Virus record (IMG/VR): IMGVR_UViG_3300049255_000605
Coordinates: 1-32,576 of that record
Source of the DNA: a virus
Length of the DNA: 32,576 bases
Strand: one strand, 5' to 3'
Position numbers and translations under genes: made by a program
Shown: positions 13,260 through 29,953 of the stretch, piece by piece
Position numbering within the stretch: position 1 is the stretch's first letter
How the letters are laid out: every line of letters begins with the position of its first letter
The notes under the pieces: model-generated
Told to the model about the DNA's origin: nothing
What the model saw: only the letters and a program-made list of their open reading frames with translations
Databases searched by the model: none

Positions 13260-14276
13260 TCATGCCCGCTGCGCATGTTCCGTCTCCTGCGGCGAGGCTG
13301 TGCGTATGTCGGTGAACATGCCGCCTTCCTCCTTGATTCTCTTTGCCGCGATATCGATATATTCGGGGTTGATCTCGATACCGGTGCAGTTTCTCTGCAG
13401 CCGGTCAGCGACCAGGCCGGTGGTGCCAGCGCCGAAGAACGGATCGAGTACCGTGCCGCCCTGCGGACAACCCGCCAGCACGCATGGCTCGATCAGTTTC
13501 GGCGGATAGGCCGCGAAATGCGCGCCGGTAAACGGCTGAAACGGCACTTCCCACACCGTGCGCTTGTTGCGCTTCTCCACCACGGCGCGGAATGCCTCCC
13601 TGCCGGGCAGCGCCTGCGTCTTACCGGCAAATTCGCCGCGCCTTTTGCTTGGCCGCGTCACACGCAGCTTGGAATCGTAATCGAAAACCCTATCCCGCAC
13701 GATGCCGGGGAGCCTGCCATCCGCTTCCAACGCGTCTTCCTTGATGATCAGGTGATCGTAGTGATATTTCGGCTCCTTACTGAGCAGGAAGATGCGCTCG
13801 TGCGCCGTGGTCGGTCTGTCTTCGACGCTCTCCGGCATGGCGTTCGGCTTATGCCAGATGATTTCGCTGCGCAGGTACCAGCCATCGGCGCGCAGCGCGA
13901 AGGCCACCATCCACGGAATGCCCACCAGGTCTTTCGGCTTCAATCCCGCAGGAACAAGTCCCTTGTTGGAATATGCCGGTTGCCAGTTCTTGCTGCGCTT
14001 CTCCTCCGATTGGCCGCCTTTGCCGCTTCCGGCGTAAGAGTCGCCGAGATTGAGCCATAGTGTGCCATCGTCGCGCAGCACACGGCGAACGGCGCGAAAT
14101 ACCGACACCATAGTTTCGACGTAGGCTTCCGGCGTTTCCTCGCGCCCGATCTGGCCGTCCATGCCGTAATCGCGCAAGCCCCAGTAAGGCGGGCTGGTGA
14201 CGCAGCAATGCGCCGAGCCTTCCGGCAGGGCGCGCAGCACCTCCAGGCAATCGCCCTGCAGAATGGTGATGGTCAT
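13260..14276 (-). CDS. DNA methyltransferase, N4-cytosine/N6-adenine, beta class
   Basis: A protein of 338 residues starting MTITILQGDCLEVL. The catalytic motif IV is TSPPYW (residues 27-32) and the S-adenosylmethionine-binding motif I, DPFFGAGTTG (about 278-287), comes after it; this order defines the beta class. A target-recognition region lies between them. SPPY can serve either N4-cytosine or N6-adenine methylation, so the base is uncertain. No cognate endonuclease is next to it, so it is likely an orphan methylase that protects phage DNA or marks it. It lies directly upstream of the tail chaperone, inside the late operon. The Shine-Dalgarno is weak (CAGGCAATCC). Confidence 0.88.
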   Translation of the reverse strand: MTITILQGDCLEVLRALPEGSAHCCVTSPPYWGLRDYGMDGQIGREETPEAYVETMVSVFRAVRRVLRDDGTLWLNLGDSYAGSGKGGQSEEKRSKNWQPAYSNKGLVPAGLKPKDLVGIPWMVAFALRADGWYLRSEIIWHKPNAMPESVEDRPTTAHERIFLLSKEPKYHYDHLIIKEDALEADGRLPGIVRDRVFDYDSKLRVTRPSKRRGEFAGKTQALPGREAFRAVVEKRNKRTVWEVPFQPFTGAHFAAYPPKLIEPCVLAGCPQGGTVLDPFFGAGTTGLVADRLQRNCTGIEINPEYIDIAAKRIKEEGGMFTDIRTASPQETEHAQRA

Positions 14277-14286
14277 GGATTGCCTG

Positions 14287-14389
14287 TTATTTGGTGATGC
14301 GTTTGCCGTCCATGCCGCGCTTCGGCGCGGCGTTCGGTGAAGTTGAACAGCCTGGCAAGCATGGCGACGGGAACGCTCGGATTGGCCAT
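14287..14389 (-). pseudogene. Remnant of a small HTH (Nu1/small terminase-like) gene
   Basis: From an ATG at 14387-14389 the minus strand reads MANPSVPVAMLARLFNFTERR, which resembles the helix-turn-helix start of Nu1-type small terminase or related phage DNA-binding proteins. The frame then becomes implausible and ends at a TGA overlapping the methyltransferase ATG. A neighbouring frame gives a natural-looking C-terminus, GMDGKRITK, with its stop at 14287-14289. The simplest reading is an internally deleted and frameshifted small gene. The assignment rests on about 20 residues and is tentative. Confidence 0.35.
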
Positions 14390-14394
14390 AATTT

Positions 14395-14495
14395 GGACAC
14401 ACTGCTAGTCAAGTTGATAATCGCCTTAATATGTTGATATATAATGCGAATTAGTCACTTTTTCAGTTGATAAACGCTGTGTTCGGAGCATTATG
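14395..14495 (+). promoter_or_regulatory. Early promoter/leader module, copy A
   Basis: This segment shares blocks with 17203-17303 over the same 101-base length: GGACACACTGC, then CTTAATAT.TTGATATATAATG with a -10-like TATAAT (14440-14445), TTCAGTTG, and GGAGCATTATG at the end. A TTGATA at 14414-14419 could be a -35 box if TATATA at 14438-14443 is used (spacer 18). Two of these blocks recur at 20652-20671 and 20707 with the same 36-base offset. The module heads the plus-strand gene cluster that starts at 14542. Confidence 0.7.
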
Positions 14496-18576: not shown

Positions 18577-18867
18577 ATGACCAAATCTGCAAGCGCCAAG
18601 GCGCTGAATCAATCGGACAAGGCTGCGGAACACAAAATGCGCTGGAGCAAATTCGGCGAGGAGAAACTGCTCGGTCGCACCATCGTCGGCATCCGCTACC
18701 TCACCGACAAGGAAACGGCGGCAATGGACTGGATGCACTCCAGCGCCGTGCTAGTGCTAGACGACGGCTCACTTCTTTTCCCGTCGATGGACGATGAAGG
18801 TAATGACGGCGGCGCGCTGTTCGGCCAGACAAAGGACGGGAAAGAAATTACCCTGCCGGTCATTTAA
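18577..18867 (+). CDS. Conserved small phage protein
   Basis: A protein of 96 residues starting MTKSASAKALNQ, with GAGGAG upstream. The core 'LLGRTIVGIRYLTDKETAAMDW' and 'VLVLDDGSLLFPSMDDEGNDGGALFGQT' is a pattern I recognise from phage proteins of unknown function. A C-terminal 'KEITLPVI' ends the fold. Its stop overlaps by 8 bases the convergent stop of the C5 methyltransferase. Confidence 0.78.
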   Translation: MTKSASAKALNQSDKAAEHKMRWSKFGEEKLLGRTIVGIRYLTDKETAAMDWMHSSAVLVLDDGSLLFPSMDDEGNDGGALFGQTKDGKEITLPVI

Positions 18868-18907
18868 CCAGCGCGTCGATTTCCTGAATCCTTTCGCCCA
18901 GCCAGCG
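18853..18907. repeat. Parent copy of 55-base displaced repeat
   Basis: This segment spans the overlapping ends of the small gene at 18577-18867 and the C5 methyltransferase on the other strand. It is repeated with four mismatches at 18453-18507, 400 bases upstream. The convergent overlap makes the pair of stops recognisable in the displaced copy. Confidence 0.85.
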
Positions 18908-20614
18908 CATCACCGGCACGGCCATGCTGTTGCCTAGCGCCTTGTAGCGATTGCCATCGGCGGCTGGTTTGCCCCGGAACGGCACCAGCGTGTAATCGTC
19001 CGGAAAGCCCTGCAGCCGTTCACACTCGCGGGGAGTGAGGCGCCGCACGGCCATCGGCGATATCACCCCCGGCGTATGCGCCGTGCTGATGGTAGGCGCC
19101 GGGTCGCCGTCCTCGCCCACGCCGTTGCCCTGCCGGTTGACAGCATCGTGCTTCTCCGGGTCACGCATGGCGTTGCGCAAGTCGAGCGGATGCAGCACGG
19201 CGGGCTTGTTGTTGCCTCCACCGCCGCCTTCGAGCGACGGCGCGACGTCATCTTCGTAGCCGATGCTGCGCGATGCTGCTGACTGGCCGGGCTTAAAGCA
19301 GCTCGCCACAAAAGTCTGCTGCTTCATGCCCGGCTGTGCCGGCAGCGCACCGGCCAAATCACCATCACCGTTCAGGAGACGCACCTCGTCGCGGCAGTTC
19401 TGCGCGAAAGCAACGGCATGCTGTGCTGCAGCCTGCAGCGTGAACATGGCATCGCCGTCATTGCCGATGCCGGAGCCGATGCTGGCATCGTCGGTGGAGG
19501 CGCCGGTACGTTTGCCCACCTCCTGCAACGGGATGGCCACCGCTAGCTGCCCGCCGCCGTTCTGGTGGCTGCCGTGATGCGTCATGGCGCGCAGCGTCGG
19601 CGCGATATCATCCGCCGCCGCGCCGTTGCCGTAATCCTTGGCGGAGAAGGCAATCAGGGTTTCCGTATCGAAATCCTGCCGTTGCGTTGATTTGGCATTA
19701 AGCCCAGCCGCCACGTCGATGCTGCCGGAGGTGTTGCCGCCGCCGAACGCCAGCAGAGGAACGCCGCGACCGGTGCCATCCTCGCTGGCGTCGAAGCCAT
19801 CGCCGCGCAGCGTGTGCGCCACCAGCGTCTCGGCATCTTCCCTGTGGCTGCAATTCGGCTGCCCGCGCAGGGAATGAGCGACCAGCCCGCCGCTGGTAGC
19901 GAAGGAATTCTCGCCGCTGCGTCCGGAACGTGCATCAAGAGTGGGGGCAACTAATCCGCCACCGTCGCCATCGCTGGGGTCGGGATAGCCACGACTTCCA
20001 GTGCCGCCTTTAAGTGTTCCGGCAATGCTTTCCCGCGCTTTGCGGCGCGGCGTAATATCCCGGCGCAGGCTTTCGCGCTCAAACAATACCGCCGCGGCAG
20101 GGCGCCAGTCTCCAAGATGTCCGACAACGAACACACGCCTGCGCCGCTGCGGCACTCCGAAATACTGAGCGTCAAGAATCCGGTAGGCGAACCCATACCC
20201 GCATTCTGCCAACCCTCCGAGGAAGGTTCCAAACGCCCGTCCTCCGTCAATGGACAGCACACCGGGAACATTTTCCCAAACCAGCCAGCGGGCGCGAGAT
20301 TTTTCAGCCAGCCGTATAAACTCAAGGGAGAGGTTCCCTCGATCGTCAGCAAGTCCTTTTCGCAGCCCGGCGACGCTGAAGGACTGGCAGGGCGTTCCTC
20401 CGACCAGAAGGTCAATTGCTGCATAATCGCTTTCCTTCAGCGCCGTGAAATCACCGTGCAGCGGCACGTCCGGATAATGATGCGCCAGCACCGCGCGGGC
20501 GAAGGAATCGATTTCCGAAAATCCCACCGGCTGCCAGCCGAGCGCATGCCAGGCGGCGGTCGCCGCTTCGATGCCGGAACATATCGACAGATATTTCAGT
20601 GTTTTGCGCGTCAT
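18860..20614 (-). CDS. C5-cytosine DNA methyltransferase with long repeat-rich insert
   Basis: A protein of 584 residues. Catalytic motifs are complete: motif I (CSGIEA), motif IV GGTPCQSFS with nucleophile Cys76, motif VI ENVPG (Glu114), motif VIII QRRRR (156-160), motif IX 'RRLTPRECERLQGFP' and motif X GNSM. Between motifs VIII and IX lie about 360 residues, much longer than in typical enzymes of the family. That insert consists of degenerate Gly/Asp-rich repeats (GGLVAHSLRG, ETLVAHTLRG, DDIAPTLRAM). The target-recognition domain must be inside it. No endonuclease is near, so it is likely an orphan methylase that protects phage DNA. It lies between and opposite to plus-strand genes. Confidence 0.92.
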   Translation of the reverse strand: MTRKTLKYLSICSGIEAATAAWHALGWQPVGFSEIDSFARAVLAHHYPDVPLHGDFTALKESDYAAIDLLVGGTPCQSFSVAGLRKGLADDRGNLSLEFIRLAEKSRARWLVWENVPGVLSIDGGRAFGTFLGGLAECGYGFAYRILDAQYFGVPQRRRRVFVVGHLGDWRPAAAVLFERESLRRDITPRRKARESIAGTLKGGTGSRGYPDPSDGDGGGLVAPTLDARSGRSGENSFATSGGLVAHSLRGQPNCSHREDAETLVAHTLRGDGFDASEDGTGRGVPLLAFGGGNTSGSIDVAAGLNAKSTQRQDFDTETLIAFSAKDYGNGAAADDIAPTLRAMTHHGSHQNGGGQLAVAIPLQEVGKRTGASTDDASIGSGIGNDGDAMFTLQAAAQHAVAFAQNCRDEVRLLNGDGDLAGALPAQPGMKQQTFVASCFKPGQSAASRSIGYEDDVAPSLEGGGGGNNKPAVLHPLDLRNAMRDPEKHDAVNRQGNGVGEDGDPAPTISTAHTPGVISPMAVRRLTPRECERLQGFPDDYTLVPFRGKPAADGNRYKALGNSMAVPVMRWLGERIQEIDALVK

Positions 20615-22298: not shown

Positions 22299-23129
22299 CT
22301 ATTCGCAGGCGCCCCAGGTGGCCATGCAGCTGGGAACATCCTTCGCGTCGCTGCAGAACATATTCATTTGCCTGCCGCCGTGGTCGGTTTTGCACCACAG
22401 CCTCACGTCAGCGATGGCCGGTATATGCACACCGGGCACGACGCCAGGAGGAAACCAACTCCGGCCTATGCGCCGTTCCCATTCCTCCAGCTTCGCCCAG
22501 GCCCACTCCGGCAACAGGCGCAACTCTTTCTTATTGGCATGGATGCAGGGAAAGCATCCGACGCGCCCGAAACCTAGCGCATATAGCGGATTCGGCGGCA
22601 CGCCGCATTCGGCGAGAAACGAAAACACTTCCGACTCCGTCCAACGCAGTAATGGCCTGATAACCTCGGCATCGTAGAATTCCGAGAATTCCCGCTCCGG
22701 CATTTTCGCGCGCCGCGGCGATTCCCCGGCACGGATGCCTAGATATATATTCACCTCATCGTCCTGCCGGATGCTCTCGATCCACTGACGAATCGGATGC
22801 AGCTTTACATGCTCGGTGCAGAACTGCGCCTTCGCGCTGGGCGCACGGCCTTTCCACAGCATCATATCGAGAAAAGGATTGCCCGACGCCGCGATGCCTT
22901 TACCAGCCAGCCGGTCAGTAAAGTCAGCGCGTACCCATTGAATGTCCGGCCCGCCAGCCATCATGGGCAGATTGCGCACATAATTATAGGTGACCTGATG
23001 CTCGTGGCCGGTGTCGGCGAATACCGCCTTGAAACCGTCCCTGCCAAACTGACGGATCGCCCAGCAATACAATGCCGTTGAATCCTTTCCGCCCGATAGT
23101 GAGACGATGCGTAGTGGCGGATGGCTCAT
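22299..23129 (-). CDS. PAPS-reductase-like PP-loop ATPase
   Basis: A protein of 276 residues with the N-terminal ATP pyrophosphatase P-loop SGGKDSTALYC and a PAPS-reductase/DndC-type core (FADTGHEHQVTYNYV, FCTEHVKLHPIRQWI). Paired cysteines follow in the C-terminal half (VGCFPCIHANKKE) and near the end (CMATWGACE). Members of this superfamily activate sulfur or adenylylate substrates; phage versions are common and mostly unstudied. It could take part in phosphorothioate-type DNA modification or in tRNA thiolation; no dnd partner genes are present. It lies 15 bases upstream of the tRNA in transcription order. Confidence 0.85.
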   Translation of the reverse strand: MSHPPLRIVSLSGGKDSTALYCWAIRQFGRDGFKAVFADTGHEHQVTYNYVRNLPMMAGGPDIQWVRADFTDRLAGKGIAASGNPFLDMMLWKGRAPSAKAQFCTEHVKLHPIRQWIESIRQDDEVNIYLGIRAGESPRRAKMPEREFSEFYDAEVIRPLLRWTESEVFSFLAECGVPPNPLYALGFGRVGCFPCIHANKKELRLLPEWAWAKLEEWERRIGRSWFPPGVVPGVHIPAIADVRLWCKTDHGGRQMNMFCSDAKDVPSCMATWGACE

Positions 23130-23164: not shown

Positions 23165-23800
23165 CTATTTTGCCTGCGCTGTAATGGCCTGGAAATACAA
23201 CTCGAAGTGATGATCGGCGAATAGACCCCAGGGATCGCTAGGCGGCGGCGATACATTCAACCGGGTATTCGACCAGGGGAACACATAAGGATCAAGATAC
23301 GGGATCGTAAACGGCACATCGCAAACAGGATCGTGGCGGTTCTTATAAGCAGTTTTGGCATAGGGAGTGACCAGTTCTTTTATTTTTTGAGCGCCAGGCA
23401 GCGGTGAGCCGAACACGACGATACGATCACCGGCCATAACCGTGTCATGCTCCGCCACCAATGCCGCATATACCCATGCTCTGGCCGCTCCCAGACTGTG
23501 GCCGGTGATGATGGTCGGTTTTTGCGGATCAGGACGCAGTTCACCAAATATATCATGCATGCCTTCGGCGAAGCCGGGATGTACGCCACCCAGATCAGGA
23601 TCATCGACCATCTGAGCGAAATCTTCAAAATCGCGCACCCAATCCAGGAATGTCGTGCTGCCGCGAAAACAGACCACCGTGGCATCAGGTAAATGTTTGA
23701 TCCCGACGCATACGCCATAGGAATCAATGATTTTATCGATTTTGTCCGTTTGCCAGTATAGGTCATGAACCACCTGCGCAATATCGAGATCACTTGCCAT
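23165..23800 (-). CDS. Class 3 lipase-like alpha/beta hydrolase
   Basis: A protein of 211 residues. The nucleophile elbow GHSLGAA places Ser102. Asp157 (NRHDPVCDV) and His197 (FADHHFE) are at the expected positions for a class 3 lipase triad, and 'VVCFRGSTTFLDWVRDF' is the typical oxyanion-hole region. There is no signal peptide, so release would depend on the holin. Its start overlaps the end of the holin-like gene by 11 bases, so it belongs to the lysis block. It may attack envelope lipids at lysis; that is an inference. Confidence 0.87.
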   Translation of the reverse strand: MASDLDIAQVVHDLYWQTDKIDKIIDSYGVCVGIKHLPDATVVCFRGSTTFLDWVRDFEDFAQMVDDPDLGGVHPGFAEGMHDIFGELRPDPQKPTIITGHSLGAARAWVYAALVAEHDTVMAGDRIVVFGSPLPGAQKIKELVTPYAKTAYKNRHDPVCDVPFTIPYLDPYVFPWSNTRLNVSPPPSDPWGLFADHHFELYFQAITAQAK

Positions 23801-24379: not shown

Positions 24380-24844
24380 CTAGGAATTTGGCGCCAGCGA
24401 TCCGCCAGCATTGAAATAAACGGCCTGCAAATCGCTTAAGTTCTGCTGGTGCTGGCCGTAAGGTGAGCCAGGCAGGCTTGCCCATATCGTTCCGCATTTA
24501 AGGATTGCACTCGACAACCTGCCGGCATCGATATCGGCCAACGCGCACCGTTCGGAAATCTGCCGCAGCGCTATCGCATCCTGCGATGCAGGCGAGAAAT
24601 CCGGCAGGTTAAGCATTTGCTTGTAAGCGTCGTAATATTTCTCCAGCAGCTGGTAACGGCCTGCCGCCGTTGAGTCTAAATCCGGATTGAAAATGCGCGG
24701 GTGATCGGCATAGCTTTCAAACAGCAACGGGTCTTCCGGCGTGGAACCCACTAGGACATTGTATCCGTTGTCGCTTTCCAAAATAGTCGAAGTGCCTTCC
24801 GACCATGCCAGCATGTCGAGAAATGCTTTGCGGTTCCCGGACAT
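24380..24844 (-). CDS. Lambda R-type endolysin (GH104 lytic transglycosylase)
   Basis: A protein of 154 residues close in length and sequence to phage lambda R. The conserved catalytic Glu16 lies in 'RKAFLDMLAWSEGT'. It also keeps the 'SYADHPR' segment, 'STAAGRYQLLEKYYDAYKQ', 'LPDFSPASQDAIALRQI' and 'IWASLPGSPYGQH'. These enzymes cut the glycan strands of peptidoglycan by intramolecular transglycosylation once a holin opens the inner membrane. There is no signal sequence, so it depends on the holin. Its start overlaps the major tail protein stop (TAATG at 24844). Confidence 0.95.
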   Translation of the reverse strand: MSGNRKAFLDMLAWSEGTSTILESDNGYNVLVGSTPEDPLLFESYADHPRIFNPDLDSTAAGRYQLLEKYYDAYKQMLNLPDFSPASQDAIALRQISERCALADIDAGRLSSAILKCGTIWASLPGSPYGQHQQNLSDLQAVYFNAGGSLAPNS

Positions 24845-25620
24845 TAGAGGCTACTCGACCAGTCGAAGAAGCGGCCAAGGCTATCGGTGAAGGCCGAAAA
24901 TTCAAAGTCGGGGACGGTGAAATCCTCGTTTTTGAAATCCCAACTCATCTTCGTTGGGATGGCGGCATAGAGGGTAAGGCACATGTTATTCCCGGCGTAA
25001 TTATTGGCAAGCTGCATCCGAAAAGTTGGCGATGAACCCATCAACTGATTGACCGCAGTGATGCGGTTTCCGGTTGAAGTTTCAAAATACGCATAAGAAA
25101 TAATAACCAGCACGCCTGCCGTATGATCGGCGGAACTGAATGTATAGGTGCCGGTAGTCATATCGCAGGAATACTCGCCTGCCACCGGCGATGATGCGAC
25201 GCGCGTCATCTGAATGCCGGTGCCGGCATTGAACACGCCGCAATCAACGCCAGGGGTGCCCGAAGACATTGAAGATCCGTTAGCAACGATGATCTGATAA
25301 GGTGTGGTAGGAATCGCCGTGCCGTCGGGGCCGCCTTCGTCGACAATCTGAATTTGCTCGCCAGTTGCTAAGGTCTGCCCTAAAAAGGCATCATTAAGCT
25401 GCCGCGCATTCAGGTTAGCGATCTTCGCCTTGCCGGTAATTTTCTGCTGGCCGCGCGCCACGGCGACAGGCGCCTGGTACTGGCCGTAGAGTTCCTTGGT
25501 CTGGAACGACATATCGACGCTGACATCCTGAAGCGTTCCGATGCGCGTGGGTGTCGGTACGGCGATATCGGTGCGCACCAGGAACAACGTCCCGGCGCCG
25601 AAGTTGTATTGTTGTAGCAT
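24844..25620 (-). CDS. Major tail protein
   Basis: A protein of 258 residues from the ATG at 25618-25620 (MLQQYNFGAGTLFLVRTDI), with GGAG ten bases upstream and the conserved hairpin element before it. Its beta-rich composition, the 'TRIGTLQDVSVDMSFQTKELYGQYQAPVAVARGQQKITG' region and its place after the tail terminator fit a siphophage major tail (tube) protein. The segment 'GSSMSSGTPGVDCGVFN' to 'SYAYFETST' may be a surface-exposed insertion. It should form the tail tube with the tape measure inside. Confidence 0.85.
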   Translation of the reverse strand: MLQQYNFGAGTLFLVRTDIAVPTPTRIGTLQDVSVDMSFQTKELYGQYQAPVAVARGQQKITGKAKIANLNARQLNDAFLGQTLATGEQIQIVDEGGPDGTAIPTTPYQIIVANGSSMSSGTPGVDCGVFNAGTGIQMTRVASSPVAGEYSCDMTTGTYTFSSADHTAGVLVIISYAYFETSTGNRITAVNQLMGSSPTFRMQLANNYAGNNMCLTLYAAIPTKMSWDFKNEDFTVPDFEFSAFTDSLGRFFDWSSSL

Positions 25621-25685
25621 AGGGGAAACTCCATCTGAGGGATGCGCCGTCGTCACGACGGTGCGATTGCCTTGCCGAAGGGCGT
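25621..25685 (-). promoter_or_regulatory. Conserved hairpin leader upstream of major tail protein
   Basis: On the minus strand the block reads CGCCCTT.GGCAAGGC, then about 8 bases later a perfect 5-bp hairpin CCGTC-GTGAC-GACGG (25647-25661), then AGATGGAG and the start codon 27 bases after the hairpin. The same blocks, spacing and hairpin lie before the major capsid gene (29449-29515). It is not seen at other gene starts in the window. It probably acts on the mRNA or on translation of highly expressed genes. Confidence 0.7.
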
Positions 25686-25719
25686 GGCGTAACACTGGCT
25701 ATCGGCTAAACCAGCGGGA

Positions 25720-26151
25720 TTAAGGGACTAAAATTTTTACGGGTATGATTGCTTTGGCGATGCCGTCAAGCACACCGGGAAACTGTTCGATCTCGCCTTC
25801 GATCCACGCATGCGAAACGATGCCGCCAAGGGTTTGCGCAATGCAGTTGATGCCAGGTGCGAGCGCCGCCTCAATCGCATCGATGATATTATTAAGCGCC
25901 TGTTCAGGATTGGCGTTGGGGTCTTTACCGACATCGGTATAAACCCACAGTTCCGCTGTGATGGTGCGTTTTGGCGGTATGCCTCGCGCTTCCCGCGGCG
26001 GGTAATGCGTGCCGGTCGATTGAACAAACAGCGCCGGAAATGACGCCACCTTGCTCCATAACAGCAGGCGGCGGCCATTGGTATTAAAGGTAGTTGCCGT
26101 CAGCGCCAGATCGAACAAGGCCTGGATGATGGTCTCGCGGCTAGGCGTCAT
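25720..26151 (-). CDS. Tail terminator-like protein
   Basis: A protein of 143 residues starting MTPSRETIIQALFDLAL. Its pattern (an N-terminal helix, 'PALFVQSTGTHYPPREARGIPP', 'ITAELWVYTDV', 'ALNNIIDAIEAAL') fits the gpU/tail terminator group, which caps the tail tube on the head side. The size and the location between the gp10-like gene and the major tail gene agree. Its start overlaps the upstream gene by 11 bases. Confidence 0.75.
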   Translation of the reverse strand: MTPSRETIIQALFDLALTATTFNTNGRRLLLWSKVASFPALFVQSTGTHYPPREARGIPPKRTITAELWVYTDVGKDPNANPEQALNNIIDAIEAALAPGINCIAQTLGGIVSHAWIEGEIEQFPGVLDGIAKAIIPVKILVP

Positions 26152-26653
26152 CGTCGAAACCCTTTACTGATTGATCGATCACCTGCTGCAATTCTGCCGT
26201 CGCTTCGGCTTCCACATCGGCGAGACCGCCGCGCAGATAAACCCGCGCGTCGATATTGGCGATGCGTTTATAGGCGCTGACATCGATGCGCGTCGGCGAA
26301 ATATCGCGTCCGAACGCTTCGGCGATTGTGCGTGAATAAGAAGAAACCTCGTGCCGTCCGCCGCGTCCCGGTGCGCCATATTCCAGCGCAGCAGCCTTGG
26401 CGTATTCCGAACCGGAGAGGCCGCCGTCAAGCGTTACCAATCCTTTGATTTTTTGCGGATCGTCGAATACACGCGACGTGATCTCGCTTTTGAGTTTTCC
26501 GGTGCGTTCGGGCGCCAGCGCTTGAACCCTGCCTTCCAATGCTTCCGTCAGCGCTTTAATACGGACGAACAAAGCATCATGAAGTTCTTTCGGCCATTCA
26601 CCGAAACGGGCGACAATGCGGCGGTCGCCGGTGATGACGGCATCGAAATCCAT
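26141..26653 (-). CDS. HK97 gp10-like head-tail/tail completion protein
   Basis: A protein of 170 residues with the order and length expected for the HK97 gp10 family: an N-terminal helix region 'ALFVRIKALTEALEGRVQALAPERTGKLKSEI' followed by beta strands and 'EYGAPGRGGRHEVSSYSRTI', which corresponds to the family's E-Y-G-core. It bridges the head completion complex and the tail. It is 16 bases after the connector gene and overlaps the tail terminator gene by 11 bases. Confidence 0.82.
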   Translation of the reverse strand: MDFDAVITGDRRIVARFGEWPKELHDALFVRIKALTEALEGRVQALAPERTGKLKSEITSRVFDDPQKIKGLVTLDGGLSGSEYAKAAALEYGAPGRGGRHEVSSYSRTIAEAFGRDISPTRIDVSAYKRIANIDARVYLRGGLADVEAEATAELQQVIDQSVKGFDDDA

Positions 26654-26669
26654 GTGTTACCATCCATGC

Positions 26670-27356
26670 TTAAACCGCCAGCGGCACACGGTATTTTTCC
26701 AGCGCTGCCGCGATATCGGGCGGAAATGCCCCGGTCTGTCCGGGCATGGCGCCGACCCAATATTGTTCGGTGCCGATATTGGGTTCGCCCTGGCTTTTCA
26801 GGAACGGATCGCGGCCACGCGCCTTGAAACGGGCGGTGACCAGCCGCAGCACGGCCATTTCAAGGTCGGCGGGCGGACTATCGGTGCCGGGCGTAAAATA
26901 GCCCGCCGTGTACTGGATGGTATATTGATCGGGGCTCCAGCCGGTGGGATATCCCGTGTTCGGATCGGTCTTCGTCAGCCAGCCGCGCGCGGCGTCAATC
27001 ACAAAATCCGTGCCTGCAACCAGCGTATTGGAAACATTAACCGCGACGGTATCCGTAACCGAGGCCACCGACACCACCGGCCAGCGCGAAAGCATCAACT
27101 CGGAAAGCATGCCGGTGACCTGGTAAGGATACGGATCGCGGTCGGGATAGATGACGTCCTGCATTGTTTCGATGGGAAACACCCGATTGCAGTATTGCGC
27201 TACCAGCGCCGATTGCTCGGTAATGAATCGGGCAAGCGTGGCGTCGCTGGAGGTGTCGGTATCGGGGATGGCGAGATCATCCTTGATATTCTCCAGCGTC
27301 GTCAGGTCATAACTCGACGCCGCGGTTACAATAGTAGAGACGATTCGGATGGGCAT
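26670..27356 (-). CDS. Head-tail connector (gp6-like)
   Basis: A protein of 228 residues, longer than the minimal HK97 gp6 family member. An N-terminal helical bundle ('LENIKDDLAIPDTDTSSDATLARFITEQSALVAQYCNRVF') is followed by an all-beta domain and a C-terminal helix with 'LEMAVLRLVTARFKARGRDPFLKSQ'. That layout matches the adaptor proteins that dock on the portal ring (phiE125 gp8/gp6-like). It overlaps the small gene upstream by 31 bases. Confidence 0.82.
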   Translation of the reverse strand: MPIRIVSTIVTAASSYDLTTLENIKDDLAIPDTDTSSDATLARFITEQSALVAQYCNRVFPIETMQDVIYPDRDPYPYQVTGMLSELMLSRWPVVSVASVTDTVAVNVSNTLVAGTDFVIDAARGWLTKTDPNTGYPTGWSPDQYTIQYTAGYFTPGTDSPPADLEMAVLRLVTARFKARGRDPFLKSQGEPNIGTEQYWVGAMPGQTGAFPPDIAAALEKYRVPLAV

Positions 27357-27547
27357 GTCGTTTTCCGCTTACGGGTTTTATATTGTTTGCCAACGACCGG
27401 TGGCGCTTGCGCGGATTTGTCGAACACGCTGTCGCGGGGTTTGGCGCTACCCTCCGCGATCAGCTTGTCCGCCATTTCGTCAGGCACAATGCGGGTTTCA
27501 CCCGTGCGATGCGGACGCATATCACGGGTGAATTCGACCATCTTCAT
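27326..27547 (-). CDS. Small conserved head-operon protein
   Basis: A protein of 73 residues, 'VEFTRDMRPHRTGETRIVPDEMADKLIAEGSAKPRDS', with a basic C-terminus (GKQYKTRKRKTT). This short pattern commonly occurs between capsid and connector genes in alphaproteobacterial-type siphophages; its function is unknown to me. The ATG is two bases after the upstream stop and has no clear Shine-Dalgarno, so translation is probably coupled. Confidence 0.68.
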   Translation of the reverse strand: MKMVEFTRDMRPHRTGETRIVPDEMADKLIAEGSAKPRDSVFDKSAQAPPVVGKQYKTRKRKTTCPSESSLLL

Positions 27548-27549
27548 GG

Positions 27550-27987
27550 TTACGCCGCCGCCAGTTCGCGTTCGCCGCCGAGGACAATATCGGCTGCCAC
27601 CAGCGCTTCCGGCGACGTGCCACCGGTAAAGGCGACAATCTGCACCGCCCGGATAAAGCGGTTAGCGCCGGTTAGATCGATGGCCGCCGTGTTCTCACTG
27701 TTAACGGCGGTTAGCGCCGCCGTCTCCTGTACGGTGGAATTGATCTGGAAATCGCTCCACGTTGAATTATCCGGCGAATGCTGCAGTTTCGTTTGAACGC
27801 TGAGAGTGGTAGGCGAACCGCTATCAGCGCCGACGATTTGATGCAGCACGCAGGAACCGGCCATATTATGCAGCGTCCGGTCGATGCTGACTCCGTTGAT
27901 GGTGCCGGCAGCGGCATTTTGTGGAAATACGCCAGTGACCGGGACGACAATCGACCCGATATTGCGCAGAACATTAATATCAGACAT
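27550..27987 (-). CDS. Capsid-associated hypothetical protein
   Basis: A protein of 145 residues right after the major capsid gene, with GGAGG upstream of the ATG (27985-27987). It appears to be an all-beta, immunoglobulin-like or trimeric decoration fold ('SVQTKLQHSPDNSTWSDFQ', 'NRFIRAVQIVAFTGGTSPEALVAADIVLGG'). Position and fold suggest a capsid decoration or stabilising protein, but no family is certain. Confidence 0.68.
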   Translation of the reverse strand: MSDINVLRNIGSIVVPVTGVFPQNAAAGTINGVSIDRTLHNMAGSCVLHQIVGADSGSPTTLSVQTKLQHSPDNSTWSDFQINSTVQETAALTAVNSENTAAIDLTGANRFIRAVQIVAFTGGTSPEALVAADIVLGGERELAAA

Positions 27988-28029
27988 AGGATTCCTCCAA
28001 AGTTAAATGGGTTGTTAGAAAAGAACCGG

Positions 28030-29448
28030 TTATTGAACCGCAGGCGCCCAGCGAACAAACTGCAGAACGGAGCAAGCAGAGTCGTGCCGCAGCTGGAAGT
28101 CGTGTTCGGTGATGGCGCGGATCAGCGTCTGGTCGTACTGGAAGGCCGAGACCGTATTGCCACCGGCATCGGTGTAACTGCCTTCGCGCGACACGGCGAG
28201 TTCCATGCTCATCGAATCAAGAATCATCGCTTCGGTCATTTCCGCGAGGATAATGAACGAGCAATCCCTGTTCGTGCCGGTCGGATCCCAGATACTGATC
28301 GGAATCTGCGTGGTTTTCTTGAACGGATAGCCATACAGCGTGCCACGCGTCAATTCATCGCGGAACACATAGAGGCCAAGCGAGTTCAGCAAGCCGAACA
28401 GGTAGTTATACGTCCGGTGATGCATGTACCAGACGCGCTTGCGATCCGGCACGTTGGCGACATCGAGCCGGTTGATCAGACCGGTCAGCTCTGCCACAAC
28501 GGTGGCTTCGTTGTAGGTTTCGTTGGAGGTGATGAAGTTACCACCATTCTGGCCAAGCAGCGGGTTGCCAGCGTTGCCATTGACAGCGGCCGTCGAATTG
28601 GCGTTCGCACTCCACACGCCCGCCGTGCCGCCCTGCGACACCGCCCAGGCATTGGCAAAGCCGGTGAAGCCCATGGGAGCCGCCTGCGTGCCGTCGCCGA
28701 GCAGGAACGCCAAGTCTTCACGAAGCGCGATTACTTCGACCAGATCATCGCGCACCATGGCGTCGATCGCCGGATCGGCATAGCGCATCAGATCGTTGGA
28801 GATCGGCACCAGCGCAGTCAATTTCTTGAAGCTGGCGACGATTTGGCGCAGGGTTTGCTGCGACGTGGCGATCTGCGAGTTTTCCGTGCCGTAGCTCGCC
28901 GTGGCGGGGCTGGCCTGGCCGGGCAAAGTCATCGTGCCGCGAGGCATCGGAATAACGCGCGGGTTGGAGCCGCGTACCACCGCTGCCGGGCGCAGCAGTT
29001 CGATCACTTCGTTCATGTAATCCGGAGGTATGATAAAGCCGCCAGCCGGGCCGGTCGATGCCACCAGGGCGCGGGTGACGGGATGGCGTTCGCCATACAC
29101 CTCCACCGACGCCTGGCGGGCATTGAACAAATTACCGCCGCCGTAAGCCATCATCTTGGCCGCAGCGCCGATAACGAGGCTGCGTTCCTTGACATAGCGG
29201 TCAGCATCCACCGATGCTGGCGCCTTGGTAATATGATTGTCTTGCCCCTCTACCGGCTGCGCGGTTTCCGCCGAAAGTGCCTGCGCTTCTTTGACGCGGA
29301 CAATTTGCGCATCCAGATCGGTTACGGCACGTTTTTTCGTTTCGTACTCGGCCTGCTCGGCTTCGGTGAGGGTAGTTTTTTCGGCCAGCGCCTTGAATTC
29401 ATCAAAGGCGCGGGCGCGTTGCTTTAACAGTTCTGCAATTTTAGTCAT
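28030..29448 (-). CDS. Major capsid protein (HK97 fold)
   Basis: A protein of 472 residues. Residues 1-115 form an acidic, coiled-coil delta domain ('TLTEAEQAEYETKKRAVTDLDAQIVRV'), which HK97-type phages remove with the prohead protease. The fold proper starts near 'TGPAGGFIIPPDYMNEVIELL' and ends with 'AFQYDQTLIRAITEHDFQLRH', both characteristic of the HK97 family. The delta domain is probably a scaffold in addition to the nested scaffold gene upstream. The conserved hairpin leader precedes its start (29449-29515). Confidence 0.95.
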   Translation of the reverse strand: MTKIAELLKQRARAFDEFKALAEKTTLTEAEQAEYETKKRAVTDLDAQIVRVKEAQALSAETAQPVEGQDNHITKAPASVDADRYVKERSLVIGAAAKMMAYGGGNLFNARQASVEVYGERHPVTRALVASTGPAGGFIIPPDYMNEVIELLRPAAVVRGSNPRVIPMPRGTMTLPGQASPATASYGTENSQIATSQQTLRQIVASFKKLTALVPISNDLMRYADPAIDAMVRDDLVEVIALREDLAFLLGDGTQAAPMGFTGFANAWAVSQGGTAGVWSANANSTAAVNGNAGNPLLGQNGGNFITSNETYNEATVVAELTGLINRLDVANVPDRKRVWYMHHRTYNYLFGLLNSLGLYVFRDELTRGTLYGYPFKKTTQIPISIWDPTGTNRDCSFIILAEMTEAMILDSMSMELAVSREGSYTDAGGNTVSAFQYDQTLIRAITEHDFQLRHDSACSVLQFVRWAPAVQ

Positions 29449-29515
29449 AGTTGGGCTCCATCTAAAAGGGAAAGGCCGCCATCACGACGGTCTGGTGCGC
29501 CTTGCCCAAGGGCGG
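29449..29515 (-). promoter_or_regulatory. Conserved hairpin leader upstream of major capsid gene
   Basis: The minus strand reads CGCCCTTGGGCAAGGC, then a hairpin CCGTC-GTGAT-GGCGG at 29476-29490, then AGATGGAG and the start codon 28 bases after the hairpin. The same order and spacing occur before the major tail gene. Between the two copies one stem pair changes from U-G to U-A, and the loop keeps GUGAY, so base-pairing is maintained. The element is intergenic and lies before the two most abundant structural genes. Confidence 0.7.
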
Positions 29516-29548
29516 ATTGGGGCATCGGACGGCACGCGCCGCCCGAAT

Positions 29549-29953
29549 TCAGGTTTTCTGCGACAGGACTTTCAGATCGGCAGAGCGGCGCCGGAAATCG
29601 GCGTTGCGTTGATCGTCATTGCCGCCATCGCCGGCAGAGGGATCCGTATCGTCTTCCTCGTCATCGTCGTTGGCCGGTGGCTTGGTGTTTTTCATCGCCG
29701 TGCGCAGGCAGCGCTGGCAAGCCTGCAGGGAACGGCCAAGGGCGCGGTGAGCGTCGTTGGCGTCTTCATGCATATCGGCAAGATCAGCGCGCATGTCTTC
29801 ATCGCCTTCGCTTCGATCCCGGATGTCATCCATCTGTTCGCCAAGCGCCTTATGGCGTTCCATGGCGCGTTGCAGATGGTCGTTGGCTTCACTCAATTGC
29901 TTCTTGGTGGCGGCCGACAATTTCTTGCCAGCCCGCGTTTGGGTCGTGGACAT
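29549..29953 (-). CDS. Nested capsid scaffold protein (internal start)
   Basis: An in-frame ATG at 29951-29953 inside the protease gene is preceded by AGGAG with a 7-base spacer, a strong ribosome site. It would give 134 residues: a coiled-coil region (LSAATKKQLSEANDHLQRAMERH), a central acidic helix (EGDEDMRADLADMHEDANDAHRA) and a very acidic tail. The layout copies lambda C/Nu3, in which the scaffold is a nested gene in the protease frame. The expression of this internal start is an inference. Confidence 0.72.
   Translation of the reverse strand: MSTTQTRAGKKLSAATKKQLSEANDHLQRAMERHKALGEQMDDIRDRSEGDEDMRADLADMHEDANDAHRALGRSLQACQRCLRTAMKNTKPPANDDDEEDDTDPSAGDGGNDDQRNADFRRRSADLKVLSQKT

Follow-up and report, generated by a model that had tools for sequence, protein, structure and literature searches.

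We describe here an RNA leader element that is found twice in a viral DNA of 32,576 nucleotides (IMG/VR record IMGVR_UViG_3300049255_000605, positions 1 to 32,576; the whole of this stretch is referred to below as the window), once before an HK97-type major capsid gene and once before the tail-tube gene. The leader is composite, and its core, hairpin 1, is a well-supported RNA hairpin of the form stem-(C)-UU-NGGC-AA-stem', in which the bulge and the loop are near-invariant, while the sequence of the stem is free and covaries. Hairpin 1 occurs almost only before genes for major capsid, tail-tube and sheath proteins, which belong to unrelated families, and it is linked to an atypical ribosome site, AUGGAGCC. 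Apparently, it is an unrecorded phage RNA motif that marks the genes of the major virion proteins.

Both leaders, as well as the genes downstream of them, lie on the minus strand of the window, and the two are alike over about 65 nt. In the capsid leader, hairpin 1 (29499-29513) reads GCC-(C)-UU-GGGC-AA-GGC with the bulged C at 29510, and is followed by hairpin 2 (29476-29490; CCGUC-GUGAU-GGCGG) and by a UCCC...AUGGAGCC stretch (29454-29471) with the Shine-Dalgarno sequence GGAG at 29456-29459. In the tail-tube leader, the same order is kept, with hairpin 1 at 25669-25683 (GCC-(C)-UU-CGGC-AA-GGC, bulged C at 25680), hairpin 2 at 25647-25661 (CCGUC-GUGAC-GACGG) and a UCCC...AUGGAGUU stretch at 25627-25642 with GGAG at 25629-25632. 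An initial annotation, made from the letters alone, had placed two shared leader segments here, and this is where they are. It described them, however, as a linear block followed by a hairpin with a GUGAY loop, the latter being the part it stressed. While the similarity is real, the block, GCCCTT[G/C]GGCAAGGC, is not linear: it is itself hairpin 1, the better conserved of the two structures and the core of the element, and the CCGTC-GTGAY-GRCGG hairpin, though present in both copies, is an optional module. What is more, the block and hairpin 2 are separated by 8 bases in the capsid leader and by 7 in the tail leader, instead of 8-9, and hairpin 2 and the start codon by 27 and 26, instead of 27 and 28; a change from U-G to U-A between the copies exists as described, but is one-sided. 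The joint pattern of block and hairpin has two matches in the window and none in 100 dinucleotide shuffles. Finally, a covariance model of hairpin 1 gives just two strong matches in the window, at 29.1 and 24.3 bits, and no third leader copy (the next score is 13.0 bits, with an E of 0.12), so that the claim that the other gene starts lack the leader is right.

Is hairpin 1 really a hairpin? To start with, 120 loci of capsid relatives, fetched via the protein alone, provided 102 distinct upstream regions, 73 of which contain the loop C[CT]TN?GGC[AC][AC]; in 70 of these 73, at least 3 bp flank the loop with its first C unpaired, and the stems seen include GCC/GGC, GCCG/CGGC, GCGG/CCGC, GAC/GTC, GAGC/GCTC and GCGC/GCGC. 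Covariation was then analysed in 50 distinct sequences, namely 47 capsid leaders, chosen by their loop only and with the stem ignored, and three tail leaders of isolates. In this set, pair 1 is CG in 39 sequences, GC in 10 and UG in one, pair 2 is CG in 42, GC in seven and AU in one, and pair 3 is GC in 31, CG in 12, AU in three, GU in two and UA in one. Altogether, 91% of the cells in the alignment (A3) are paired, and 46 stem cells are doubly changed, compared with 15.7 +/- 3.3 in shuffles. The covariation score of 0.447, as opposed to 0.095 in shuffled alignments, was reached by 0 of 500 shuffles and drops to 0.02-0.08 if the register is slid, so that the stem covariation which the initial annotation had proposed to look for is indeed present. 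Pairing of the bulged C in a shifted register was considered and rejected, since the C is retained in the 10 of 50 sequences in which its possible partner turns to C. Moreover, on the capsid tree, 10 changes are needed for the G-C state at pair 1, and well-supported branches force at least seven of them; the double changes are therefore not a single inherited event. Two further capsid leaders carry AUGGAGCC without the standard loop and may represent variant forms: L239 has a GCCGC-GGACGGGCA-GCGGC hairpin instead, and L218 a GGGGG...CCCCC stem around AGATGGGCG.

The placement of the element is equally distinctive. In 1.03 Mb of capsid-relative loci, the strict core with its stem occurs 89 times in the forward and 4 times in the reverse orientation, with 67 of the 89 forward sites lying at most 130 nt 5' of a capsid gene and the majority of the remainder before a tail gene; among the relatives of the tail gene, the counts are 17 forward and none reverse. 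When whole phages were scanned with the hairpin 1 covariance model (18 genomes, 1.06 Mb), 19 matches scored at least 23.8 bits, the next best being 18.7; each of the 19 lies 5' of a structural gene, and a genome has one or two of them. An exact 16-mer of the motif is found in at least 120 stretches of IMG/VR, as against 32 for its reversed control. Among the matches listed, a ribosome site and an open reading frame follow within 110 nt at 86 of 102 distinct 16-mer sites and at 4 of 30 control sites, and the stem-swapped 17-mer GCCGCTTNGGCAACGGC likewise stands before capsid and tail genes, 32 of its 82 sites having both a ribosome site and an open reading frame. The 78 downstream proteins, again among the matches listed, include 18 of PF05065, 12 of PF06199 and 11 of PF18906, as well as PF08813, PF16461 and sheath proteins (PF06199, PF18906, PF08813 and PF16461 being tail-tube families), together with single cases of Phage_cap_E, Phage_capsid_4, P22 coat, KPP10_Orf10 and Mu gpT. 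Because these are different curated families, a single inherited unit of leader and gene is not sufficient to explain the pattern. Copies before capsid and tail genes thus exist in related and unrelated phages alike, and chance similarity of G/C-rich blocks, the concern raised at the outset, is rejected by the shuffles and the reversed control. We also observed the exact 16-mer, CGCCCTTGGGCAAGGC, upstream of a gene of unknown function (phrog_5931) in L098, L081, L096, L144 and L159; in the first of these (L098:6608-7522, minus strand), the gene adjoins genes for a Sak-type annealing protein, an exonuclease and a primase/helicase.

As for the two genes in the window itself, the initial annotation had called them major capsid and major tail genes, and both assignments are right. 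The capsid gene (28030-29448, minus strand) belongs to the HK97 fold, with matches to PF05065 (1e-35) and phrog_10 (2.1e-51). The product of the second gene (24844-25620, minus strand) falls into phrog_8234, a group of unknown function, and was modelled with AlphaFold2 from 52 aligned sequences (mean predicted local distance difference test score, pLDDT, of 77). The model resembles tail-tube proteins in the PDB, the best match being 8xkn (E of 1.9e-8), with the YSD1 major tail protein at 1.7e-7, which supports a tail-tube gene without an annotated functional family. Terminase, portal, protease, adaptor and tape measure genes are their neighbours in the window.

Among 166 non-redundant leaders, the spacer between hairpin 1 and the Shine-Dalgarno sequence is bimodal, at about 5-19 nt (with a median of 11 nt in this short form) or 25-44 nt, which puts hairpin 1, like a translational operator, at or near the ribosome site of its gene. 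Leaders with the long spacer usually contain a second hairpin, optional in that other phages do without it. In the class with a GNRA or GUGAY loop, 42 of 49 leaders have at least 4 bp, compared with a mean of 28 and a maximum of 36 in shuffles (two registers), and the stem varies at pair 2 (UA/CG) and pair 5 (CG/GC); in another class of the long form, a terminator-like hairpin with a U tract is found (L019, L224, L379). The ribosome site itself is unusual as well. Namely, TCCC stands shortly 5' of the Shine-Dalgarno sequence in 59 of 98 long leaders, CC follows GGAG in 59.5% of the motif leaders but in 7.4% of other GGAG sites, and AT precedes it in 57% versus 7%; with one capsid taken per cluster, CC after GGAG is still found in 15 of 30 versus 3 of 25 (p = 0.004). 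As CC in this position does not lengthen the pairing with the 3' end of 16S rRNA, the anti-Shine-Dalgarno sequence, it has some other role. Several phages that lack hairpin 1, namely Marinobacter AS1, Pseudomonas PG1, Klebsiella phiKO2 and Komagataeibacter phiKM1 (L484, L485, L486; L168:5420-5500), also have a terminator-like hairpin with a U tract directly 5' of the capsid ribosome site, which is perhaps a functional equivalent of hairpin 2.

Where hosts are known, the phages that bear the element infect Alphaproteobacteria. The isolates are RcapNL (Rhodobacter), phiLM21 (Sinorhizobium) and RHph_TM3_3_3 (Rhizobium phaseoli), all with the element at the tail gene, and the titles of the metagenome-assembled genomes name Alphaproteobacteria, Rhodospirillales, Sphingomonadales, Telmatospirillum and Acetobacteraceae, along with one of Gammaproteobacteria (L184). 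The spread of hairpin 1 is mosaic, and the capsid leaders that were checked in phages of Shigella, Vibrio, Klebsiella, Marinobacter and Pseudomonas lack it. A chromosomal element was rejected, with matches in 4 of 337 and 1 of 321 genomes and two matches of the reversed control in the first set; in the Proteobacterial chromosomes tested, there is no excess of the motif over that control. A different conserved block, approximately GTAGTCACCCGGC..GCCGGAGGGC..GTCCTGCC, is common to the capsid leaders of the Rhizobium phages 16-3, RHph_Y3_1 and RHph_TM3_3_14B (L415:4020-4108, L417:4908-4997, L422:4908-4997) and may be another leader element.

Could the motif already be catalogued, as the initial annotation allowed? 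At gathering scores, the window matches no family of Rfam 15, and positions 29400-29560 match none up to an E of 5, while 140 kb of motif-bearing phages yielded two tRNAs only; in the set of literature searched by sequence string and phrase, the motif is not described, the one paper listed for a string being a study of mitochondrial DNA, and papers beyond that set could describe it. The closest published analogues are the Start Associated Sequences (SAS) and ESAS elements of Cluster K mycobacteriophages (PMC3203893), found also in Microbacterium cluster EF phages (PMC7302621). The SAS, 5'-GGGATAGGAGCCC, is a 13-bp sequence with at most two deviations, placed at the ribosome sites of non-structural genes in 11-19 copies per genome, and the ESAS is its upstream extension with an inverted repeat, although the authors found little support for hairpins or RNA pairing (PMC3203893); the ESAS was later seen to hold putative promoters (PMC11373665). 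The likeness lies in a conserved element with an upstream extension at the ribosome sites of selected phage genes of different families, and in the conservation of GGAGCCC past the reach of 16S rRNA pairing. That said, the window leaders do not contain the 13-bp sequence but read TTAGATGGAGCCC and CTCAGATGGAGTT, with GGAGCCC alone in common and in the first leader only, and the element described here, instead of many copies at non-structural genes without covariation, has one or two copies per phage, at capsid and tail genes, and a covarying hairpin with a fixed bulge and loop.

Other known systems share single traits with the element. The operators of MS2-type RNA phages and of the T4 type are, like hairpin 1, small bulged hairpins with a short fixed loop beside a ribosome site; each of them serves a particular gene and is bound by a protein that its own phage encodes, whereas hairpin 1 precedes many unrelated genes and, judging from the gene contents compared, has no phage protein in common. 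HK022 put consists of two adjacent hairpins in phage RNA, as do the window leaders, and needs no phage protein; however, put adjoins the early promoters and acts at a distance, whereas the present element is not 3' of early phage promoters but far inside the operon, at the ribosome sites of single late structural genes. Hairpin 2, with its short GC stem and GNRA-like loop, recalls the boxB of lambda. In contrast to boxB/nut, which works in early operons together with boxA and the N protein, the genes here are late, the loop of the core hairpin is C-UU-NGGC-AA and no phage protein is common to the carriers compared.

How might the leader work? The structure and the placement of hairpin 1 are strongly supported, and from them we infer a mechanism that we consider somewhat probable, namely a cis-acting RNA leader that is carried by late polycistronic mRNA in a group of tailed phages, chiefly those of Alphaproteobacteria, and that acts at or near translation initiation via a trans-acting factor. 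In such a leader, the core of hairpin 1 (C-UU-NGGC-AA on a free stem) would stand 5-45 nt 5' of the atypical ribosome site, optionally with hairpin 2 in between, its bulge and loop would be recognised by the factor, and initiation at the capsid, tail-tube and sheath genes would be raised or timed relative to their operon neighbours. Recognition by a partner is suggested by the very fact that bulge and loop are fixed on a free stem, and translation initiation is favoured because the element keeps to one strand, lies near the ribosome site and goes together with AUGGAGCC. The factor is probably host-encoded, or the ribosome itself, since 15 motif-bearing phage genomes have no gene in common: blastp at 1e-4 yields no protein cluster with members in every one of them, and the three clusters that reach 10 of the 15 occur in motif-free phages too. 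Gene co-occurrence thus offers no candidate for a phage-encoded partner, and binding by a phage protein, as once suggested, is not favoured; the broader proposal, that the two most abundant virion proteins have in common an element of translation or mRNA processing, is, on the other hand, supported by the covariation and by the placement in related and unrelated phages. Energy folding of the capsid leader adds a possible switch. Namely, in many capsid leaders UUGGGC of hairpin 1 can pair with GCCCAA just 3' of the Shine-Dalgarno sequence, which would exclude hairpin 1 and cover the ribosome site until the factor keeps hairpin 1 closed. We assume that the effect is activation late in infection, and not timed repression, because the genes with the leader are those whose products are most needed.

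Several observations weigh against this mechanism. The element is dispensable: phages 16-3 and RHph_Y3_1 and the best 30 PF05065 loci of alphaproteobacterial genomes lack it, and of 74 distinct leaders of tail-gene relatives, 14 carry it and 60 do not. In addition, the phrog_5931 gene is a recurrent non-structural partner of the 16-mer, the only one seen. Single leaders fold no better than their shuffles (z from -0.5 to +0.5), and the predicted minimum is often the UUGGGC-GCCCAA pairing and not hairpin 1. The switch, in turn, is not general, as the tail leader of the window has GGAGUUU and cannot form that pairing, and it cannot covary, as the GGC of the loop is invariant. What is more, a co-occurrence analysis with blastp at 1e-4 could miss a short or fast-evolving phage RNA-binding protein. 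More tentatively, and with rather less confidence than would make it probable, we propose that hairpin 1 is a portable tag that a conserved host factor, or else the ribosome itself, reads and that has repeatedly been attached to non-homologous capsid, tail-tube and sheath genes, which would amount to a post-transcriptional regulon set by stoichiometric need and not by gene ancestry.

The main rival to an action on translation is RNA processing or stability. Namely, cleavage of the late mRNA by a host nuclease, close to one of the two hairpins, could leave capsid and tail messages whose 5' ends the hairpins protect, as they would the 3' end of the fragment upstream, so that the level of those cistrons alone is raised. 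The leader does sit at cistron borders, some relatives replace the optional hairpin 2 by terminator-like hairpins, and several phages without hairpin 1 have such a hairpin just 5' of the capsid gene. However, a bulge and loop that do not vary, on a stem that does so freely, and the AUGGAGCC context are more than a plain stabiliser needs, and hairpin 1 is frequently just 5-19 nt from the Shine-Dalgarno sequence; all in all, we hold this explanation to be unlikely, if a serious one.

An element of the HK022 put kind, in which RNA polymerase, bound by the nascent hairpins, would pause or terminate differently, allowing late transcription to run on through the capsid and tail genes or to begin anew at them, strikes us as improbable. 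True, two hairpins lie side by side, and in L019, L224, L229 and L379 a terminator-like hairpin with a U tract comes after hairpin 1, but the majority of leaders lack a terminator there, and the element is tightly related to the ribosome sites of individual cistrons, deep in the operon and away from a promoter; a promoter common to both window leaders was looked for and not found. In the window, the spacer after hairpin 1 is not a U tract, unlike in an intrinsic terminator, and hairpin 2 has a weak terminator score in the capsid leader, with CCUUUCCCUU, and none in the tail copy.

We regard as very improbable that the motif acts as DNA, be it as a protein binding site or as a recombination boundary aiding the exchange of capsid and tail modules. 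Although it is common to non-homologous gene modules, as expected of a boundary sequence, and although the similarly placed ESAS of Cluster K contain putative promoters (PMC11373665), its stem arms covary around a fixed centre, its bulge is on one strand only, and it is nearly always oriented towards the gene, which a DNA palindrome or boundary would not require. Finally, recent copying of one window leader from the other, without function, would explain their likeness along about 65 nt, but is refuted, to the point of negligible probability, by the loop conservation and stem covariation, the at least seven forced changes on the capsid tree and the unrelated gene families, all of which require selection.

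Outside a few models, it is poorly explained how one polycistronic message of a tailed phage gives rise to hundreds of capsid and tail-tube subunits and to few copies of portal and terminase. A covarying hairpin before precisely those genes, across unrelated families, offers a concrete and testable handle on subunit stoichiometry. In addition, hairpin 1 is a bioinformatic marker by which the genes for the major capsid and tail proteins can be located in phages that lack annotation, and it served as such here, pointing to a tail-tube gene without an annotated family, in agreement with the structure comparison. If the factor is a host protein, this would also reveal a host dependency of phages of Alphaproteobacteria.

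Some other genes of the window, all on the minus strand, deserve mention. Two genes lie between the tape measure and tail-tube genes, one resembling phosphoadenosine phosphosulfate reductase (22299-23129) and one resembling class 3 lipase (23165-23800). A gene at 13260-14402 encodes a DNA methyltransferase of the N6/N4 type, and another, at 18860-20614, a C5-cytosine DNA methyltransferase of 584 amino acids, which also matches a phage DNA primase family.

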